DNA from: a virus
DNA: 24,351 bases
IMG/VR virus record: IMGVR_UViG_3300047996_000027
Span: 1-24,351 of that record
Strand: one strand, 5' to 3'
The translations under genes were made by a program, and so were the position numbers. Within the stretch, counting starts at the first letter, position 1. The number at the start of each line of letters is the position of its first letter. Positions 7,004-17,836 of this stretch are shown here, piece after piece. Under the pieces are notes generated by a model. The model was not told the DNA's origin, made no database searches, and was given only the letters and a program-made list of their open reading frames with translations.

Positions 7004-8557
7004 ATGGAATTTAATAACCCTAGTGAGATAGTTAAAACTCTCACATTTGGCAATGAAGCCAAAGAGCAAATTATGCAAGGCGTCGAAAAATTGTCAAACG
7101 CAGTAAAGAGCACGTTAGGTGCTTCTGGAAAATGCGTTATATATGAAGACGCTCTTGGAAAACCGGTAATAACAAAAGATGGTGTAACCGTTGCGGAAAG
7201 CGTAGTCTTATTACATCCGGTTGAGAACATTGGCGCAACACTCATAAAAGAGGCGGCAAGCAATACGGTAAAAGAAGCCGGGGACGGTACAACAACATCA
7301 ACTGTCCTCGCGCATTCTTTACTAAAAACAGTTAATGAAAATTTAGATGAAGAAAAAGTTAGAGAGCTTAAAAGCGGCATTGCTACTGGTGCTGAAAAAG
7401 TTATGGTTTATCTTGATAAAACCAGTATTGAAATTAAAGGTGATATGCTTAAGCAAGTTGCTGGTATTTCATGCAACAACGACTCAGAGCTTGGAGATAA
7501 AATTGGACAAGCTTATGAAAAAGTTGGAAAAAATGGAGTTGTTCTAATGGAAGAATCCGATACAAATGAAACTTATGTTGAGTTTGTTGATGGAGTTCAA
7601 TTTGATAGCGGTTTAAAATCACCGCATTTAGCTACAGATAAAAATAAGGGCTCAGCTACATTAGAAGACCCATATATACTTATAGTTTCTTCACCTATAC
7701 CCAATATACGAAGAATACAAAATGTATTAGAGTTTGTAATTAAAAATAAGAAAAGTTTATTAATAGTTGCAGACGTAGAGCAGCAGCCGTATCAAACGTT
7801 ATTAGCTAATAAAGTAAAAGGCAATATAAAAGTAAATATTGTTGACATACCAGGCTTTGGCCCAACTAAACAGCAGACGCTTGAAGACCTTGCTATATTA
7901 ACTGGCGCTAACATAATAAACGAGGAGTTAGGGGACGATTTAGACCTCATAGACCCTGATGTATTAGGCAAAGCGTTTAAAGCTGTTACAGACGACAAAA
8001 ACACTGTTCTGCAAGTAGCCGAAGCAAATGAAGAGGTTGCATTAAGAATAATGGATGTTGAAAAGCAAATAAGCGAAGAGACTAATCCGTTTTTTAAGAA
8101 ACAATTAGAGCAAAGGCTATCAATGCTTACCGGTCAAGTTGGTATAGTTTATGTTGGAGCAGACTCTAAAGTTGAATTAAAAGAAAAGAAAGATCGTGTT
8201 GAAGATGCGATTTATGCGACGAAAGCCGCTTATAAAGAAGGTATAGTCCCGGGCGGGGGTGTAGCTTTGCTAAATGCTTCTACACTGATTAAGCCGAAAA
8301 ATAAAGGTGAAGAGATATTGCTTGCTGCAATAAGATCACCGTATGAGACTATATTAGAAAACGCTAATATGCAAGTAGTTTATCCTCAAATCAAAAACAG
8401 GGGTATAGACGTTAAAACAGGTAAAGATGTTAATATGATTAAAGCCGGTATTATAGATCCGGTGTTAGTTACTAAAACAGCTTTAAAGAACGCAGTAAGT
8501 GTTGTCAATACAATTATATCTGCCGATTGTATAATCAGTAATAAAAGATTAGCATGA
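7004..8557 (+). CDS. groEL: Phage-encoded chaperonin GroEL (Cpn60)
   Basis: The 517-residue product is recognisable as group I chaperonin from end to end. This family forms ATP-driven double rings that fold client proteins in a cage capped by GroES. Nucleotide-site motifs are present: TKDGVTVA (Asp59, equal to E. coli Asp52 by eye), GDGTTTSTVLA (Asp94, equal to Asp87) and VEDAIYATKAA with the hydrolysis Asp401 (equal to Asp398), then KEGIVPGGGVALL. The usual TLGPKGRNV is changed to TLGASGKCV. The apical domain (about residues 195-380) keeps the fold (VDIPGFGPTKQQTLEDLAIL) but has altered substrate/lid-binding residues. The protein ends at NTIISADCIISNKRLA and lacks the Gly-Gly-Met tail, which explains its being shorter than the usual 540-548. 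The next gene, groES, overlaps its stop by ATGA. Likely role: folding virion proteins in the infected cell. Confidence 0.97.
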   Translation: MEFNNPSEIVKTLTFGNEAKEQIMQGVEKLSNAVKSTLGASGKCVIYEDALGKPVITKDGVTVAESVVLLHPVENIGATLIKEAASNTVKEAGDGTTTSTVLAHSLLKTVNENLDEEKVRELKSGIATGAEKVMVYLDKTSIEIKGDMLKQVAGISCNNDSELGDKIGQAYEKVGKNGVVLMEESDTNETYVEFVDGVQFDSGLKSPHLATDKNKGSATLEDPYILIVSSPIPNIRRIQNVLEFVIKNKKSLLIVADVEQQPYQTLLANKVKGNIKVNIVDIPGFGPTKQQTLEDLAILTGANIINEELGDDLDLIDPDVLGKAFKAVTDDKNTVLQVAEANEEVALRIMDVEKQISEETNPFFKKQLEQRLSMLTGQVGIVYVGADSKVELKEKKDRVEDAIYATKAAYKEGIVPGGGVALLNASTLIKPKNKGEEILLAAIRSPYETILENANMQVVYPQIKNRGIDVKTGKDVNMIKAGIIDPVLVTKTALKNAVSVVNTIISADCIISNKRLA

Positions 8558-8811
8558 AAGCAATAAATCATTTTGTAATTGTAGATAAAATTAAAGAGCA
8601 GCCAACAAAAGTTGGTGGGCTAGAGCTTACTGAAAAACAAAATAAAGACGTTCGTTACGTTAAAGGTAGAGTAATAAGTATAGGCGACCAAATAGATATA
8701 CTGCAAGACGGTGATTTTGTTAGATATGACAAACACGCTGGGCATGGAATAGAATGGAACGATCATTTGTATTATGTGCTAAAAATTTCAGATATAGTAC
8801 TTATAGAATGA
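8554..8811 (+). CDS. groES: Phage-encoded co-chaperonin GroES (Cpn10)
   Basis: The product has 85 residues; cellular GroES has about 95. The family order is clear: N-terminal strand INHFVIVDKI, a mobile loop at about residues 14-32 containing GGLEL (counterpart of the GGIVL that docks on GroEL), KGRVISIGD, then DGDFVRYDKHAG and a C-terminal YYVLKISDIVLIE strand. It would form the seven-subunit lid of the chaperonin cage. The middle loop hydrophobic is replaced by Glu24, an oddity to compare with the changed receptor groove in the neighbouring GroEL. The ATG overlaps the groEL stop (ATGA), so translation is probably coupled; the order groEL-groES is the reverse of the usual bacterial operon. 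Confidence 0.9.
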   Translation: MKAINHFVIVDKIKEQPTKVGGLELTEKQNKDVRYVKGRVISIGDQIDILQDGDFVRYDKHAGHGIEWNDHLYYVLKISDIVLIE

Positions 8812-11938: not shown

Positions 11939-12181
11939 ATGGCAAAAAAAGAAAAGCTAACAGCAGAAGAACTAGAAGTTCTAACAAACATTATTAAGCA
12001 ATTAAATAGCGTTCAATCACAGATCGGTGGATTAGAGTTACAGAAGCATGAGTTATTACATACATTTGCTCAGGTTAAAACAAAGCTTGATGAGCAGCAA
12101 AAAGAGTTGCAAGATAAGTATGGTGACAAAGTGATTGATATTAACACCGGTGAACTACGTGAGCCTGCTAAGGAAGATTAG
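11939..12181 (+). CDS. Small coiled-coil protein
   Basis: The product has 80 residues, mostly one long charged helix with heptad-like hydrophobics (about residues 8-65: EELEVLTNIIKQLNSVQSQI, then LELQKHELLHTF and VKTKLDEQQKELQDKYG), ending in a short beta-like VIDINTGEL. It probably forms a dimeric or trimeric coiled coil. The leader is three tandem copies of ATTAA just before the ATG, an example of the A/T-only leaders in this genome. It follows the holin-like gene by 10 bases, but no signal or lipobox is present, so a spanin role is not supported. Function unknown. Confidence 0.65.
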   Translation: MAKKEKLTAEELEVLTNIIKQLNSVQSQIGGLELQKHELLHTFAQVKTKLDEQQKELQDKYGDKVIDINTGELREPAKED

Positions 12182-12209
12182 TATAGGGAAAGACTATAAA
12201 AATGACGCC

Positions 12210-12377
12210 ATGCACTACTCTGTTGGACAGGAAGTGTATGGTGGTCATACTATAGTTAATATTATAGAAGAAGAAGAAAAGTACTCTATCTATATTCAAA
12301 AAGGTAAAGATATAATACCCTGGAAAGACTTTAATAAAAATATGGCAATAGCCATTGAATACAATATTGATTACTAA
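12210..12377 (+). CDS. 55-residue small beta protein
   Basis: I choose the ATG at 12210; the same frame extends upstream to a TTG at 12135 inside the preceding gene but without a likely start. The product (MHYSVGQEVYGGHTIVNIIE, YSIYIQKGKDIIPWKDFNKN) has short alternating strands like an SH3-type or other small beta barrel. I recall similar small proteins beside terminase genes in related phages, but no function is known to me. Its stop TAA shares one base with the ATG of the tandem GroES-like gene (TAATG), so the two are likely co-translated. Confidence 0.6.
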   Translation: MHYSVGQEVYGGHTIVNIIEEEEKYSIYIQKGKDIIPWKDFNKNMAIAIEYNIDY

Positions 12378-12976
12378 TGAAAGGTATTTTTGATTTTGTT
12401 GTAACTCCTAAAGACGATAGATACAATAATACTAAAACAATAGGCGACAAAAAATTAATATTAAATACAGAATTACAAAACCATAATTTTGTTTCAAGAG
12501 TTGGTGTGGTAATGGCTGTACCTAGTCATAATCCAACAGGCGTACAAAAAGGAGACGAAGTAATATTACACCACAATGTTTTTAGAAGGTTCAGAGATAT
12601 TAAAGGTGAAGAAAAAAATAGCAGGAGTTATTACAAAAATAATTTGTATTTTGTTTCTCCTGATCAGATATTCGCATATAAGCGTATAATAAAGTGGATT
12701 CCACTTGAGGGGTTTAATTTCGTTAAACCAATAAAAGAAGACAAGATGTTTTCTATAAACTTTGAAAAGCCATTAATTGGTATACTTAAGTATAAAGACC
12801 CAAGTCTAAAAGAAGCTAAAGAAGGTGATTTAGTGGGTTTTAAGCCAGGTGCTGAATATGAGTTTTTAATTAACAAAGAAAAATTATATCGTGTTCCAAC
12901 AAATCTAATTACAATTAAATATGAATATCAAGGAAACGAAAAAGAATATAATCCAAGCTGGGCAGCGAGCAGTTGA
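12377..12976 (+). CDS. Candidate tandem GroES-like (double Cpn10) protein
   Basis: The product has 199 residues that can be laid by eye on GroES twice. First half (residues 4-101): strand FDFVVTP, a loop, KKLILN, SRVGVVMAVPSHN, KGDEVILHHNVFRR and closing strand NNLYFVSPDQIFAY. These match, in order, FVIVDKI, GGLEL, KGRVISIG, DGDFVRYDKHAG and HLYYVLKISDIVLI of the window's own GroES. Second half (about 108-182): FNFVKPI, KPLIGILKYKD, EGDLVGFKPGAEYEFLIN, then LYRVPTNLITIKYEY, again the Cpn10 order ending in a DI-like strand. Two Cpn10 domains in one chain recall chloroplast Cpn20. The second domain has a short loop and the first an insertion near residues 71-88. It may cap the phage GroEL, or only share the fold and do another job. 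It overlaps the TerS-like gene by 56 bases. Confidence 0.6.
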   Translation: MKGIFDFVVTPKDDRYNNTKTIGDKKLILNTELQNHNFVSRVGVVMAVPSHNPTGVQKGDEVILHHNVFRRFRDIKGEEKNSRSYYKNNLYFVSPDQIFAYKRIIKWIPLEGFNFVKPIKEDKMFSINFEKPLIGILKYKDPSLKEAKEGDLVGFKPGAEYEFLINKEKLYRVPTNLITIKYEYQGNEKEYNPSWAASS

Positions 12977-13196
12977 GGAATTAATAAAAGTAGCTAAAGA
13001 ACCTATAGTTGATTCAGATGATGATATATCTGCTGATAGGCTTAAGAATGCGGCTGCCACAAAAAAGTTAGCTATATTTGACGCTTTCGAGATATTGTCT
13101 CGTATACAAGATGAAGAAGCTATATTAGAAAATAAACCTAAAGAAGAAGAGAAAGCAAAAACTTTTTCAGGGTTTGCAGAAAGAAGATCTAAATAA
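12921..13196 (+). CDS. Probable terminase small subunit (TerS-like)
   Basis: The product has 91 residues, mainly helical and charged. It sits directly before the large terminase gene, sharing one base (TAATG), the normal place for TerS. The core GQRAVEELIKVAKEPIVDSD, then ADRLKNAAATKKLAIFDAFE, reads as two or three helices with a Lys-rich face; the acidic C-terminus (EEEAILENKPKEEEK) is helical. TerS proteins recognise packaging DNA and stimulate TerL; this is shorter than many and shows no clear helix-turn-helix, so the assignment is mainly from position and general similarity. The start overlaps the preceding gene by 56 bases. Confidence 0.65.
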   Translation: MNIKETKKNIIQAGQRAVEELIKVAKEPIVDSDDDISADRLKNAAATKKLAIFDAFEILSRIQDEEAILENKPKEEEKAKTFSGFAERRSK

Positions 13197-15406
13197 TGTA
13201 CGAGCAAAATTTATACAGAGTAGAGACTCCTATAAAAGCTAATACAATAGCTAGATTAAATAAATCAAAAAAGTGGAAGTACGGTTATAACAAAGAGCAT
13301 GACATCGTAGTTATAAGCAAGACCGGACAAATTGGTGAAATATATAATATTCAAAATTTAAAAATTGCATTACCAAAAACTCCCACTAAAATAGACAAGT
13401 CACAGGATAAATGGGCTGCAGATGAGTACCCTAAGGAATTAAAACGAATACAAAGCGTTTTTGATTGGCGGGAATATCCAGATGACTTTAAAGAAAAATG
13501 GGAACCATATATAGATGAACAATTTAAACGCAGAGAAGAAGGCCATTGGTTCAATAATAAAGGTGTGGCTACTTACATTACTGGCACTCACTTTATGTAC
13601 TTGCAGTGGAGCAAGATTGACGTTGGGAAGCCAGACTTTAGGGAAGCAAACAGACTATTCTTTATATTCTGGGAAGCTAGTAAAGCCGACTCACGATCTT
13701 ATGGAATGTGCTATCTTAAAAACCGTCGTTCAGGATTTTCATTTATGTCTTCAGCAGAAACCGTTAATTTGGCAACAATTACATCAGATGCACGGTATGG
13801 TATCTTGTCAAAGTCTGGAGCCGATGCTAAGAAGATGTTCACAGATAAGGTTGTACCAATATCCGTTAACTACCCCTTCTTTTTCAAGCCCATCCAAGAC
13901 GGTATGGATCGCCCCAAGACCGAGCTTGCCTATAGAATACCAGCCAGTAGACTCACTAGAAAATCCATACAAAATAAACAAGACCAGGAGTTACTTGAAG
14001 GATTGGACACAACGATCGACTGGAAGAACACGGGTGATAACTCCTACGATGGAGAGAAGCTTAAACTCCTCGTCCACGATGAATCGGGCAAATGGGAAAG
14101 GCCTGACAACATCCTCAACAACTGGAGGGTTACAAAAACAACATTAAGGCTAGGTAGTAGAGTCATAGGTAAATGTATGATGGGTTCAACCTCAAACGCG
14201 TTAGACAAAGGCGGTGAGAACTTTAAAAAACTTTATAATGACTCAGATGTTACAAAAAGAAACCGCAATGGACAAACTAAGTCAGGATTATATTCTTTGT
14301 TCATACCTATGGAATGGAATTACGAAGGATTCATTGACGATTATGGAATGCCTGTATTCGAAAACCCACCAGAAGATTGCGTTGGACCACACGGAGACGC
14401 TATCGAAGTCGGGGTTATTGAACACTGGGATAATGAGGTCGAAGGATTAAAAGGCGACCAGGATGCTTTAAATGAGTTTTACAGACAGTTCCCGCGTACA
14501 GAGGAGCACGCGTTTCGAGATGAAACTAAAAATAGTATATTTAACTTAGTAAAAATATACGAACAAATAGATTACAACGAAGATTTAAAAAGCACAGGTG
14601 TTATTACAACTGGTAGTTTTAATTGGGAGCATGGTGTTAAAGATTCAAAAGTAATGTTTAGCCCAAACCCTAATGGAAGATTTAAAGTTTCGTGGGTTCC
14701 TAAAATTGGATTGCAAAATAAACAGGTAATTAAAAATGGTATAAAGCATCCAGGCAACGAACACATTGGTGCTTTTGGATGTGATAGTTACGATATATCA
14801 GGTACCACAGACGGCAGAGGATCAAAAGGAGCGCTACATGGGTTAACGTCTTTTAGTATGGAAGATGCTCCACCTAATTCATTCTTTTTGGAATATGTAG
14901 CAAGGCCTCAAACCGCTGAAATGTTTTTTGAAGACGTATTAATGGCTTTAGTGTTTTACGGTATGCCATTGCTTTGTGAGAATAATAAACCACGATTGCT
15001 TTATTATTTAAAACGGAGAGGCTATAGGGGTTACTCTATGAATAGACCTGATAAGTTATATACAAAGCTTTCAGTTGCGGAAAGAGAAATAGGCGGGATA
15101 CCTAACTCGTCTGAAGATATTAAGCAAGCGCACGCTGCTGCTATTGAAACTTATATTCAAACACACGTAGGGCTTAAAGCTGATGGCCAATATGGAACAA
15201 TGTACTTTAATAATACATTGAACGATTGGGCTAAGTTTGATATAAATAAAAGAACAAAATTTGATGCGGCTATTAGCTCAGGGTTAGCAATAATGGCATG
15301 TAACAGACATCTGTATAGACCTAACCCAAATGTGCAAAAACCAAAGTTAAACTTAAATATTGCAAAATATAAAAACGCCGGTTCAATATCGGAAATAATA
15401 AAATAA
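13196..15406 (+). CDS. terL: Terminase large subunit (DNA-packaging ATPase and nuclease)
   Basis: The product has 736 residues. The N-terminal ATPase part carries a non-classical Walker A-like loop YLKNRRSGFSFMS (Arg177, Arg178, Gly180, Ser182) in place of GxxxxGKS/T, as in several podovirus/crAss-type terminases, and Walker B KLLVHDES with Asp295 and Glu296. A coupling-type motif MMGSTSNALDKGG follows. The C-terminal RNase-H-like nuclease shows candidate acidic residues Asp530 (FGCDSYD), Glu595 (LLCENNK) and Asp690 (KFDAAISSG). TerL drives DNA into the prohead through the portal and cuts the concatemer. The start shares one base with the TerS-like stop; the portal gene follows after three bases. 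Codon use shifts in the ATPase half (see findings). Confidence 0.93.
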   Translation: MYEQNLYRVETPIKANTIARLNKSKKWKYGYNKEHDIVVISKTGQIGEIYNIQNLKIALPKTPTKIDKSQDKWAADEYPKELKRIQSVFDWREYPDDFKEKWEPYIDEQFKRREEGHWFNNKGVATYITGTHFMYLQWSKIDVGKPDFREANRLFFIFWEASKADSRSYGMCYLKNRRSGFSFMSSAETVNLATITSDARYGILSKSGADAKKMFTDKVVPISVNYPFFFKPIQDGMDRPKTELAYRIPASRLTRKSIQNKQDQELLEGLDTTIDWKNTGDNSYDGEKLKLLVHDESGKWERPDNILNNWRVTKTTLRLGSRVIGKCMMGSTSNALDKGGENFKKLYNDSDVTKRNRNGQTKSGLYSLFIPMEWNYEGFIDDYGMPVFENPPEDCVGPHGDAIEVGVIEHWDNEVEGLKGDQDALNEFYRQFPRTEEHAFRDETKNSIFNLVKIYEQIDYNEDLKSTGVITTGSFNWEHGVKDSKVMFSPNPNGRFKVSWVPKIGLQNKQVIKNGIKHPGNEHIGAFGCDSYDISGTTDGRGSKGALHGLTSFSMEDAPPNSFFLEYVARPQTAEMFFEDVLMALVFYGMPLLCENNKPRLLYYLKRRGYRGYSMNRPDKLYTKLSVAEREIGGIPNSSEDIKQAHAAAIETYIQTHVGLKADGQYGTMYFNNTLNDWAKFDINKRTKFDAAISSGLAIMACNRHLYRPNPNVQKPKLNLNIAKYKNAGSISEIIK

Positions 15407-15409
15407 AGT

Positions 15410-17836
15410 ATGGCTGAGTCAGTTATAAATAGTTTTTTTCCAAGCCAAGTTGCTAGCGACCAAGAAAAAATGTCGGTTAAATATGGCTTAAGAGTTGGTA
15501 GGGCGATTCAAGACGAATGGTTCAAATCAGATTCTGGTACTAATAGATATAAAAGTAATCAAAATACATTTCATCAATTAAGACTATATTCTAGGGGCGA
15601 ACAATCAATACAAAAATATAAAGATGAATTGTCTATTAACGGCGATTTATCATATTTAAATATAGACTGGAAGCCGGTTCCGATTATACCTAAGTTTGTT
15701 GACATAGTTGTAAATGGTATATCTGAAAGAACATTTGATATAAAAGCGTTTTCACAAGATCCTTATGGTGTTTCAAAACGTACAGATTACTTAAACAGTA
15801 TAGTTAGAGATTTGCAAACAAAAGAAATAAATGATTTTGCAAAAGAAAACTTTGGTGTTAACTTATATGAAAATCCTCCGGAAATGCTACCGGATTCGCA
15901 AGAAGAGTTAGACGTACATATGCAGCTTAATTATAAGCAAGCTGTGGAGATAGCGGAGGAGCAAGCTATAAACGTTTTATTAGAAGGAAATAATTACGAT
16001 TTAACTAAGAAGCGCGTTGTATATGATTTAACAACAATAGGTATTGGCGCTGTGAAAAACAGATTTTCAAAATCAGAAGGCGTTGTTATTGATTATGTTG
16101 ACCCTGCTAATTTAGTATGGTCATATACAGAATCACCTTATTTTGATGATATATATTATTGTGGCGAGGTTAGAAACGTACCTATTAATGAAATTAAAAA
16201 GCAATTTCCTGATTTAACTGACGAAGATTTAAAAAGAATATCTGAGACAGGTTATCAAAACAATGGCTTTTACGATAGAACAATATCTAATTATAACGAA
16301 TCGGATTCAAACACAGTTCAAGTATTGTATTTTAATTATAAAACATACATGAATGAGGTTTACAAAATTAAAGAAAGCGCAACTGGCGCTTCTAAAGTTT
16401 TGTTACGCGACGACACATTTGACCCGCCTGTTGAAGTATTAGAACAACAGTTTGGCAAATTATCTAGGTCTATTGAAGTATTATACGAAGGGGTGTTAGT
16501 ATTAGGCACTGATTATTTATTACAATGGGAACTAGCAAAAAATATGATGCGTCCTAAAAGTGATAGTTCTAAAGTACTTTTAAATTATAGTATTAACGCG
16601 CCTAGAATGTATAAAGGTAAGATTGAATCTTTAGTAAGCCGTATTACTGGTTTTGCTGATATGATTCAATTAACGCATTTAAAGTTACAGCAAGTAATGT
16701 CTCGTATGGTACCAGATGGTGTTTATCTTGATGCCGACGGGTTAGCCGAAATAGATTTGGGTAATGGAACAAATTACAATCCGCAGGAAGCATTAAATAT
16801 GTTTTTCCAAACAGGTTCTGTAATTGGTAGATCGTTTACGCAAGACGGCGACATGAATCCAGGTAAAATACCTATTCAAGAAATCACAAGTGGTAGTGGT
16901 GGTAATAAGCTAGGCGCTTTAATAAATACCTACAACTATTACTTGCAAATGATACGTGACGTAACCGGGTTAAACGAAGCAAGAGACGGCAGTATGCCTG
17001 ATAGCAAAGCTTTAGTGGGTATACAAAAAATAGCAGCAGCTAATAGCAACACAGCAACAAGACATATAATGCAAGCTGGGTTATATATAACAGCTCATTT
17101 AGCTGAATGCTTATCATTAAGAGTATCCGATATAATAGAATATTCTCCAGCTAGAGAAGCGTTTATACAAAAAATAGGGGCTCACAATGTAGCTACCCTC
17201 TCGGAAATGAGCAATTTGCATCTATACGATTTTGGTATATTTTTAACACTTATGCCAGATGAAGAAGAAAAACAAATGCTTGAGAATAATATACAAACCG
17301 CGTTATCAGCGGGGTTAATTGATTTAGACGATGCAATCGATATTAGAGAAGTGCAAAATTTAAAACTAGCAAATCAGCTTCTTAAAATAAAACGTAAGAA
17401 AAAGCAAGAGCGTGACCAAGCGATGCAACAACAAAATATACAAGCACAGGCACAAGCAAACGCTCAAGCACAACAAGTTGCTGCGCAAGCTGAGGTTCAA
17501 AAGAATCAAGCTTTAACTGCTCAGAAAGCAGAACTAGAACAACTTAAAGGTCAATTAGACATACAAAAGCTACAAGCTGAGGTAACAGCCAAAAAAGAAT
17601 TAATGGCGCAAGAGTTTGAGTATAACCTACAGCTAAAAGGTATGGAAACCGATATATTAAAACAAAGAGAATCTCAAAAAGAAGATCGAAAAGATGATCG
17701 TTCAAAAATGGAAGCTTCTCAACAAAGTGAATTAATTGAGCAAAGAAAAAACAATACACCACCAAAAAACTTCGAATCCGGCGGAAACGATATAATTGGC
17801 GGAGGGTTTGACTTAGGAACCTTCGAACCTAAGTAA
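15410..17836 (+). CDS. Portal protein
   Basis: The product has 808 residues and lies directly after terL, the usual place. It is large, like portals of P22-type and crAss-like phages. N-terminal and stem regions contain WKPVPIIPKFVDIVVNGISE and DPANLVWSYTESPYFDDIYY, typical of portal wing folds. The middle (KIESLVSRITGFADMIQLTH then GLNEARDGSMPDSKALVGIQ) matches the conserved crown/stem area of podovirus portals. The last 150 residues (from about 661) are a long Gln/Ala/Lys-rich coiled coil that would form the C-terminal barrel inside the head, followed by a Gly-rich tail (NDIIGGGFDLGTF). It forms the 12-fold DNA channel at one vertex and the dock for TerL and the neck proteins. Confidence 0.9.
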   Translation: MAESVINSFFPSQVASDQEKMSVKYGLRVGRAIQDEWFKSDSGTNRYKSNQNTFHQLRLYSRGEQSIQKYKDELSINGDLSYLNIDWKPVPIIPKFVDIVVNGISERTFDIKAFSQDPYGVSKRTDYLNSIVRDLQTKEINDFAKENFGVNLYENPPEMLPDSQEELDVHMQLNYKQAVEIAEEQAINVLLEGNNYDLTKKRVVYDLTTIGIGAVKNRFSKSEGVVIDYVDPANLVWSYTESPYFDDIYYCGEVRNVPINEIKKQFPDLTDEDLKRISETGYQNNGFYDRTISNYNESDSNTVQVLYFNYKTYMNEVYKIKESATGASKVLLRDDTFDPPVEVLEQQFGKLSRSIEVLYEGVLVLGTDYLLQWELAKNMMRPKSDSSKVLLNYSINAPRMYKGKIESLVSRITGFADMIQLTHLKLQQVMSRMVPDGVYLDADGLAEIDLGNGTNYNPQEALNMFFQTGSVIGRSFTQDGDMNPGKIPIQEITSGSGGNKLGALINTYNYYLQMIRDVTGLNEARDGSMPDSKALVGIQKIAAANSNTATRHIMQAGLYITAHLAECLSLRVSDIIEYSPAREAFIQKIGAHNVATLSEMSNLHLYDFGIFLTLMPDEEEKQMLENNIQTALSAGLIDLDDAIDIREVQNLKLANQLLKIKRKKKQERDQAMQQQNIQAQAQANAQAQQVAAQAEVQKNQALTAQKAELEQLKGQLDIQKLQAEVTAKKELMAQEFEYNLQLKGMETDILKQRESQKEDRKDDRSKMEASQQSELIEQRKNNTPPKNFESGGNDIIGGGFDLGTFEPK

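Follow-up and report, generated by a model that had tools for sequence, protein, structure and literature searches.

The co-chaperonin GroES carries in its mobile loop a hydrophobic tripeptide, IVL, whose site on GroEL is formed by helices H and I. To our knowledge, proteins that join two Cpn10 units in one chain are known from plastids and apicoplasts only. In Cpn20 of the chloroplast (7ekq chains R and Q) and of the apicoplast, two Cpn10 domains follow each other head to tail, and chloroplasts, like the phages considered here, also have a single Cpn10. Plant Cpn20 and Cpn10 are reported to form active hetero-oligomers, probably at three to one, and four loops are the reported minimum for GroEL binding. 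The literature on these proteins describes Chlamydomonas forms as hetero-oligomers of seven GroES-like domains (PMC5780408) and the docking of GroES on GroEL through a mobile loop (PMC4242682). The phage co-chaperonin gp31 of T4 has a single domain of 111 residues and uses the GroEL of its host.

The phage gene described here, dES, encodes a double-Cpn10 co-chaperonin of 199 residues. Its predicted domain arrangement is like that of Cpn20, from which it differs in being a phage gene beside the terminase, in an identity of only about 15% and, in the clade of the sequence analyzed, in a short loop in its second half. Unlike the T4 system, most records with dES also encode GroEL and a single GroES. 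With the Cpn10/GroES family (PF00166) the protein shares the fold, the loop triad and a conserved Arg after the loop, but it has two such domains per chain and its sequence falls under the curated cut-off of that family.

Both PHROGs and RefSeq records already label the family co-chaperonin GroES. PHROG 13932 includes phi18:3 gp096 and, by way of copies in the scanned alignment that are identical or nearly so, phi38:1 gp089 and elemo gp33, all at the same gene position; a similar gene of Panino, likewise placed, lay outside the PHROG scan. The double architecture is stated neither for PHROG 13932 nor in these annotations. A "chaperonin cpn10" appears as a core gene of the Pervagoviridae in a section of PMC8776804, where it could mean either dES or the single GroES, and the terms "GroES" and "Cpn10" are absent from the main text of the phi38:1 proteomics paper (PMC13288928). 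No description of a double phage Cpn10 was found among the top matches in the open-licence literature. The first-pass annotation had seen here the best candidate for an undescribed system, which is right in part, for the doubleness but not for the name. New here are the double architecture, the loop kept in half 1 and shortened in half 2 within one clade, and the usual presence of a single-GroES partner even where GroEL is lacking. The double architecture would refine the plain "GroES" label on many phage genes.

Gene Map of the Window

The window, that is, the whole stretch of DNA analyzed, comprises 24,351 bases and is one single virus record. The features discussed below are, in order of position:

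7004-8557, + strand: phage GroEL, 517 residues (Pfam Cpn60 at 1.6e-52; NCBIfam GroEL models; ATPase aspartates D52, D87 and D398 retained)
8554-8811, + strand: phage single-domain GroES, 85 residues, proposed ring partner of dES (Pfam Cpn10 at 36 bits, above cut-off)
12135-12377, + strand: short ORF that precedes dES and overlaps its start with a stop codon; where the short ORF truly begins is uncertain
12377-12976, + strand: dES, double-Cpn10 co-chaperonin, 199 residues, intact ORF (PHROG match, model, profile comparison)
12377-12691, + strand: dES half 1, GroES-like domain, residues 1-105 (hhalign 31.9 against phage GroES; Z 6.6 on T4 gp31)
12422-12484, + strand: hairpin of half 1 that resembles a mobile loop, residues 16-36 (strands predicted at 19-22 and 25-28; loop comparison)
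12455-12463, + strand: LIL, a hydrophobic triad at residues 27-29 that we propose corresponds to the GroES IVL (conservation in 171 sequences)
12692-12922, + strand: dES half 2, residues 106-182, a GroES-like domain whose loop is shortened (hhalign 28.0-29.6; Z 8.8 on GroES 8wuc)
12923-12973, + strand: clade-specific dES tail, residues 183-199 (overlaps ORF 12921-13196 in another frame)
12921-13196, + strand: 91-residue ORF that separates dES from terminase and is small-terminase-like in its position only (relatives found by phmmer in 162 of 189 records)
13196-15406, + strand: terminase large subunit, TerL (phrog_6681, 1.1e-165)
15410-17836, + strand: portal protein (phrog_6547, 1.8e-153)

A virion structural protein is also encoded in the window, with a weak match to Crass_capsid under the family cut-off. 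As first annotated, the genome holds both a GroEL and a single GroES; they lie on the same strand as dES, about 3.6 kb upstream of it. The reported adjacency to the terminase genes is likewise correct, with the 91-residue ORF in between. By eye, this ORF resembles the last part of the N-terminal extension in the phi38:1 and elemo terminases (L081 and L082), including a GFAE-like stretch, and may possibly be a split or fused part of a small terminase. Small ORFs similar to that at 12135-12377 were seen by eye before dES in phi38:1, elemo, MW202828 and Panino.

Evidence for Two GroES-like Domains

Each half of dES was compared by hhalign with a 22-sequence profile built from the single GroES of these phages. 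Half 1 (residues 1-105) scored 31.9 with a probability of 73%, in an alignment spanning only about residues 1-63, and half 2 (106-184 or 106-199) scored 28.0-29.6 with a probability of 57-63%; as controls, seven reversed profiles scored no higher than 18.7, and 48 slices taken from profiles of terminase, portal and capsid no higher than 18.3. A direct comparison of the two halves gave 17.2, inside the control range, so the internal repeat is visible through GroES and through structure, and not directly. The entire protein matched the PHROG 13932 profile ("co-chaperonin GroES") at E 2.1e-15, with residues 1-176 on positions 1-193 of 200, and this profile was matched by all 60 members of the scanned alignment, the window included.

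Pfam Cpn10 (PF00166) speaks against the assignment in the window protein, which reached only 13.4 bits over residues 39-67, where the curated cut-off is 21.1; 10 of the 60 alignment members matched at E 0.1 or better (best 2e-6). Scanned singly against Pfam, neither half of the window protein gave a match, and Cpn10 was not matched by any of six half-1 pieces. Half 2 does exceed the Cpn10 cut-off in phi18:3 (32.6), phi38:1 (28.2) and the phi38-type relative L086 (26.4); the dES proteins of elemo, MW202828 and Panino had no Pfam Cpn10 match. As Pfam found no Cpn10 in the separate halves of the window protein, profile comparison and models were relied on instead. A sequence search of the PDB with the window protein alone returned no match. 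The sole PDB match of the 60-sequence dES profile, 3hsq at E 0.78, was taken as chance.

An AlphaFold model from the alignment of 60 sequences consists of two GroES-like domains (pLDDT 83.1, pTM 0.76), both with the beta-barrel fold of GroES. Its best match in the PDB is 7ekq chain R from Chlamydomonas chloroplasts, which the PDB sequence table lists as "Cpn20 co-chaperonin subunit" (Foldseek E 2.4e-4, TM 0.56, rmsd 6.6); comparison with VIA gave Z 10.2 and rmsd 3.8 for 157 aligned residues spanning 1-183 and thus both domains. Taken separately, half 2 lies on GroES 8wuc with Z 8.8 and rmsd 2.1 (76 aligned), and half 1 on T4 gp31 (1g31) with only Z 6.6 and rmsd 4.0 (84 aligned), a Z under 8 being one that may reflect a mere common arrangement. 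The GroES-like domain of alcohol dehydrogenase was considered as another identity and rejected. For half 2 its best Z, 5.6, falls below the Cpn10 entries, and for half 1 its best Z, 5.1, comes close to the 6.6 of gp31, so that the identity of half 1 is founded on the profile, on gp31 and on Cpn20 in combination. Of the two GroES assignments that of half 1 is weaker, with no Pfam Cpn10 match and a modest structure score.

The same architecture is predicted for relatives. The model of L086 has the same best match, 7ekq chain R (Z 10.8, rmsd 4.6, 163 aligned; Foldseek E 4.5e-5), and its second half reaches Z 10.0 on GroES. A separately predicted model of the phi18:3 "Chaperonin cpn10" (200 residues) compares with the dES model at TM 0.73 and rmsd 5.4. 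By profile and model, dES is confirmed as two GroES-like domains head to tail in one chain. The two GroES folds first traced by eye in the 199-residue product, and their likeness to chloroplast Cpn20, are thereby borne out, with half 1 the less secure; searched separately, as proposed at that stage, neither half matched Pfam Cpn10, and both matched the profile of phage GroES.

In the Crassvirales phage phi14:2, the second gene upstream of the terminase (L225:42266-42652, - strand) encodes a hypothetical protein of 129 residues that is among the Foldseek matches to the dES model (E 0.032, with TM 0.42 of its length) and looks GroES-like by eye. No Cpn10 was found in it with Pfam and PHROGs. Phage phi14:2 also encodes GroEL. 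Terminase-adjacent GroES folds may extend to the Crassvirales.

Distribution and Gene Neighborhood

Relatives of dES are encoded in at least 598 stretches of viral contigs, and the family is widespread in phages of the Bacteroidota, just upstream of the terminase. Isolates with the gene include phi38:1, phi40:1, Calle, the elemo phages, Panino, phi18:3, phi13:2, phi19:3 and phi46:3. The comparisons below draw on 189 records (184 loci from IMG/VR, three from annotated phages, and the window together with its own copy, L188); six were dropped from the alignment as annotated, duplicate or window sequences and 13 because the ORF did not start with M, leaving 170 that were aligned with the window. 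In all 188 records in which both genes were found, TerL lies downstream of dES on the same strand and no more than about 1 kb away; many of these records are close relatives or copies and not independent. The end of dES overlaps the start of TerL in phi38:1 and elemo. Both halves are under apparent purifying selection, with a median pN/pS of 0.37 in half 1 and 0.31 in half 2, calculated from pairs with pS over 0.15 (74 of 76 for each half) and at pS values near 0.7 that are close to saturation.

A bacterial origin of the gene was considered and rejected. All 24 matches among genome contigs lie in contigs of binned assemblies (23 titled MAG and one titled isolate Bin_147), with a terminase in 21 of the 24; the remaining three (L203, L210 and L213) extend at most about 260 bases beyond the match. 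Blocks of dES and terminase occur in binned assemblies labeled as archaea or Proteobacteria, for example L209 (CP070801.1, about 874 kb), probably through the binning of phage contigs. One odd case is a dES-terminase block inside a MAG chromosome of 1.05 Mb.

Mobile Loops and Conserved Residues

Across the alignment of 171 sequences, half 1 has a mobile loop with a hydrophobic tripeptide. Residues 27, 28 and 29 (LIL in the window) are L, I, V, M or F in 171, 169 and 161 of the 171, respectively, and the flanking positions 26 and 30 are hydrophobic in none. The corresponding segment of half 2 (residues 119-134) measures 16-18 residues in 167 of 171 sequences, including the window, and 26-27 residues in four that are phi38-like. 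A mobile loop in both domains, a trait of Cpn20, is thus absent from the window clade. Relatives of the phi38:1 type have a long loop in both halves, and the L086 model shows strand pairs, of low pLDDT, at both loop places; by alignment, the half-2 loop of phi18:3 is long as well. Given the long half-2 loop in both the phi38 type and phi18:3, the two-loop form is probably ancestral, and the second loop would have been shortened in the window clade.

Five further residues, R41, P49, H65, H66 and N67, are invariant in all 171 aligned sequences and have no evident role in GroES. By eye, the HHN at residues 65-67 (12569-12577) has no counterpart in the single GroES of the window; the dES of phi18:3 is without the two histidines. 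The apical groove of the window GroEL has diverged from that of E. coli, with only L237 identical among eight positions and with L234 replaced by Q and V264 by A, so that loop binding is not readable from the sequence.

A Proposed Mixed Lid and Its Alternatives

The flanks of the 189 records contain a single GroES in only 42 cases and GroEL in 41, and co-occurrence was therefore judged on whole records, namely 30 of the 184 IMG/VR loci, chosen largely by their length (25.8 to 99.6 kb), and eight more, with phi38:1 present in both sets (as G010 and W05). A single Cpn10 above cut-off was found in 26 of the 30 and in all eight further records, and GroEL in 25 of 30 and four of eight. Four phages of the phi18:3 type keep a single GroES together with dES, and GroEL was not detected in them; the same holds for record G012. 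Neither GroEL nor a single GroES was detected beside dES in G007 (52.6 kb), G028 (41.8 kb), G026 (32.2 kb) and G029 (25.8 kb), which may be incomplete. A tblastn search of phages with the window single GroES gave no match at 1e-3. Between its two candidate partners, dES is accompanied more constantly by the single GroES, which points to a lid composed of dES and single GroES together.

We favor a reading of dES as a double co-chaperonin whose gene lies with those for packaging and the capsid and is therefore probably expressed late. Half 1 would keep the GroEL-binding mobile loop, and half 2 would serve mainly as ring filler in the window clade. The protein would join the single GroES in a mixed lid of seven domains, for example three dES and one GroES with four loops, and this lid would close the phage GroEL, or the host GroEL in phages that have none of their own. 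Its clients would be phage proteins made late, for example the capsid, the portal or the terminase; the place of dES among the packaging genes, with its end overlapping the start of TerL, suggests both late expression and late clients. We give this explanation as a whole, in which we infer ring composition, GroEL binding, timing and clients, an even chance of being correct. The arithmetic of seven domains and four loops is suggestive and does not amount to evidence, since a tetramer of dES only, or an assembly of four dES in which one second domain is excluded, would likewise offer four loops. More tentatively, the lid may be deliberately asymmetric, with three dES and one GroES giving seven domains but only four loops; such a weaker or differently shaped cap would be tuned to large late proteins and would parallel, in a phage, the lid that Cpn20 and Cpn10 form in plastids. 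The lineages of this large phage family, with a long or a short second loop and usually with a single GroES, offer simple systems in which to test a seven-fold chaperonin with an even-numbered or mixed lid, and to ask which late phage proteins need such a lid.

Instead of sharing a ring with GroES, dES might take its place on GroEL during late infection, in the manner of T4 gp31, as a self-sufficient homo-oligomer of four chains with one domain left out or of seven chains whose second domains form an upper storey. Its loop and fold would suit this role, four one-loop chains would also supply four loops, and plant Cpn20 alone is active as a tetramer according to a passage of PMC4242682. In phi38:1, moreover, the strand opposite to that of dES carries groEL and the single cpn10 among replication genes, and dES lies with the late genes. 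In the window, however, GroEL, GroES and dES share one strand and separate timing is not evident; the predicted domain arrangement is that of Cpn20 and not of stacked storeys, and the retention of a single GroES in nearly all whole records is hard to square with its replacement. We consider this doubtful. The second, specialized lid suggested in the first-pass annotation is plausible, with the usual single GroES making a mixed lid at least as likely.

A use of the double fold away from GroEL, in which dES would act on terminase or portal to aid assembly or packaging, would account for the constant nearness of dES to TerL (188 of 188 records), for the five invariant residues and for the four phi18:3-type phages in which GroEL was not detected. 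It is unlikely, given that the GroEL-type triad is kept (171, 169 and 161 of 171) and that a single GroES accompanies dES in 4 of 4 phi18:3-type records. In addition, gp096 of phi18:3 is not among the MS/MS-marked proteins of its record, so dES is probably not part of the virion. The packaging role raised at the outset finds its one support in gene position. The best structural match, 7ekq chain R, belongs to a Cpn11/20/23 complex on chloroplast ClpP (described in part of PMC8889267), and the hydrophobic loop of dES might by analogy cap or inhibit the ClpP of the host. This is very improbable: 7ekq is the only double-Cpn10 entry among the matches listed, which leaves the match without functional weight, and nothing in the analysis points to a contact with ClpP. 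The mixed lid remains the preferred reading.

The Overlapping Tail

The last 17 residues of dES (12921-12976) overlap the next ORF in another frame. This tail is present in 77 of the 171 sequences, a number equal to the size of the window-like clade (77). Synonymous change in it is low, with a median pS of 0.158 among the pairs that exceed 0.15 (27 of 76, so that it is lower overall) compared with about 0.69 elsewhere in the gene. The tail is consistent with overprinting after the loss of a stop codon.
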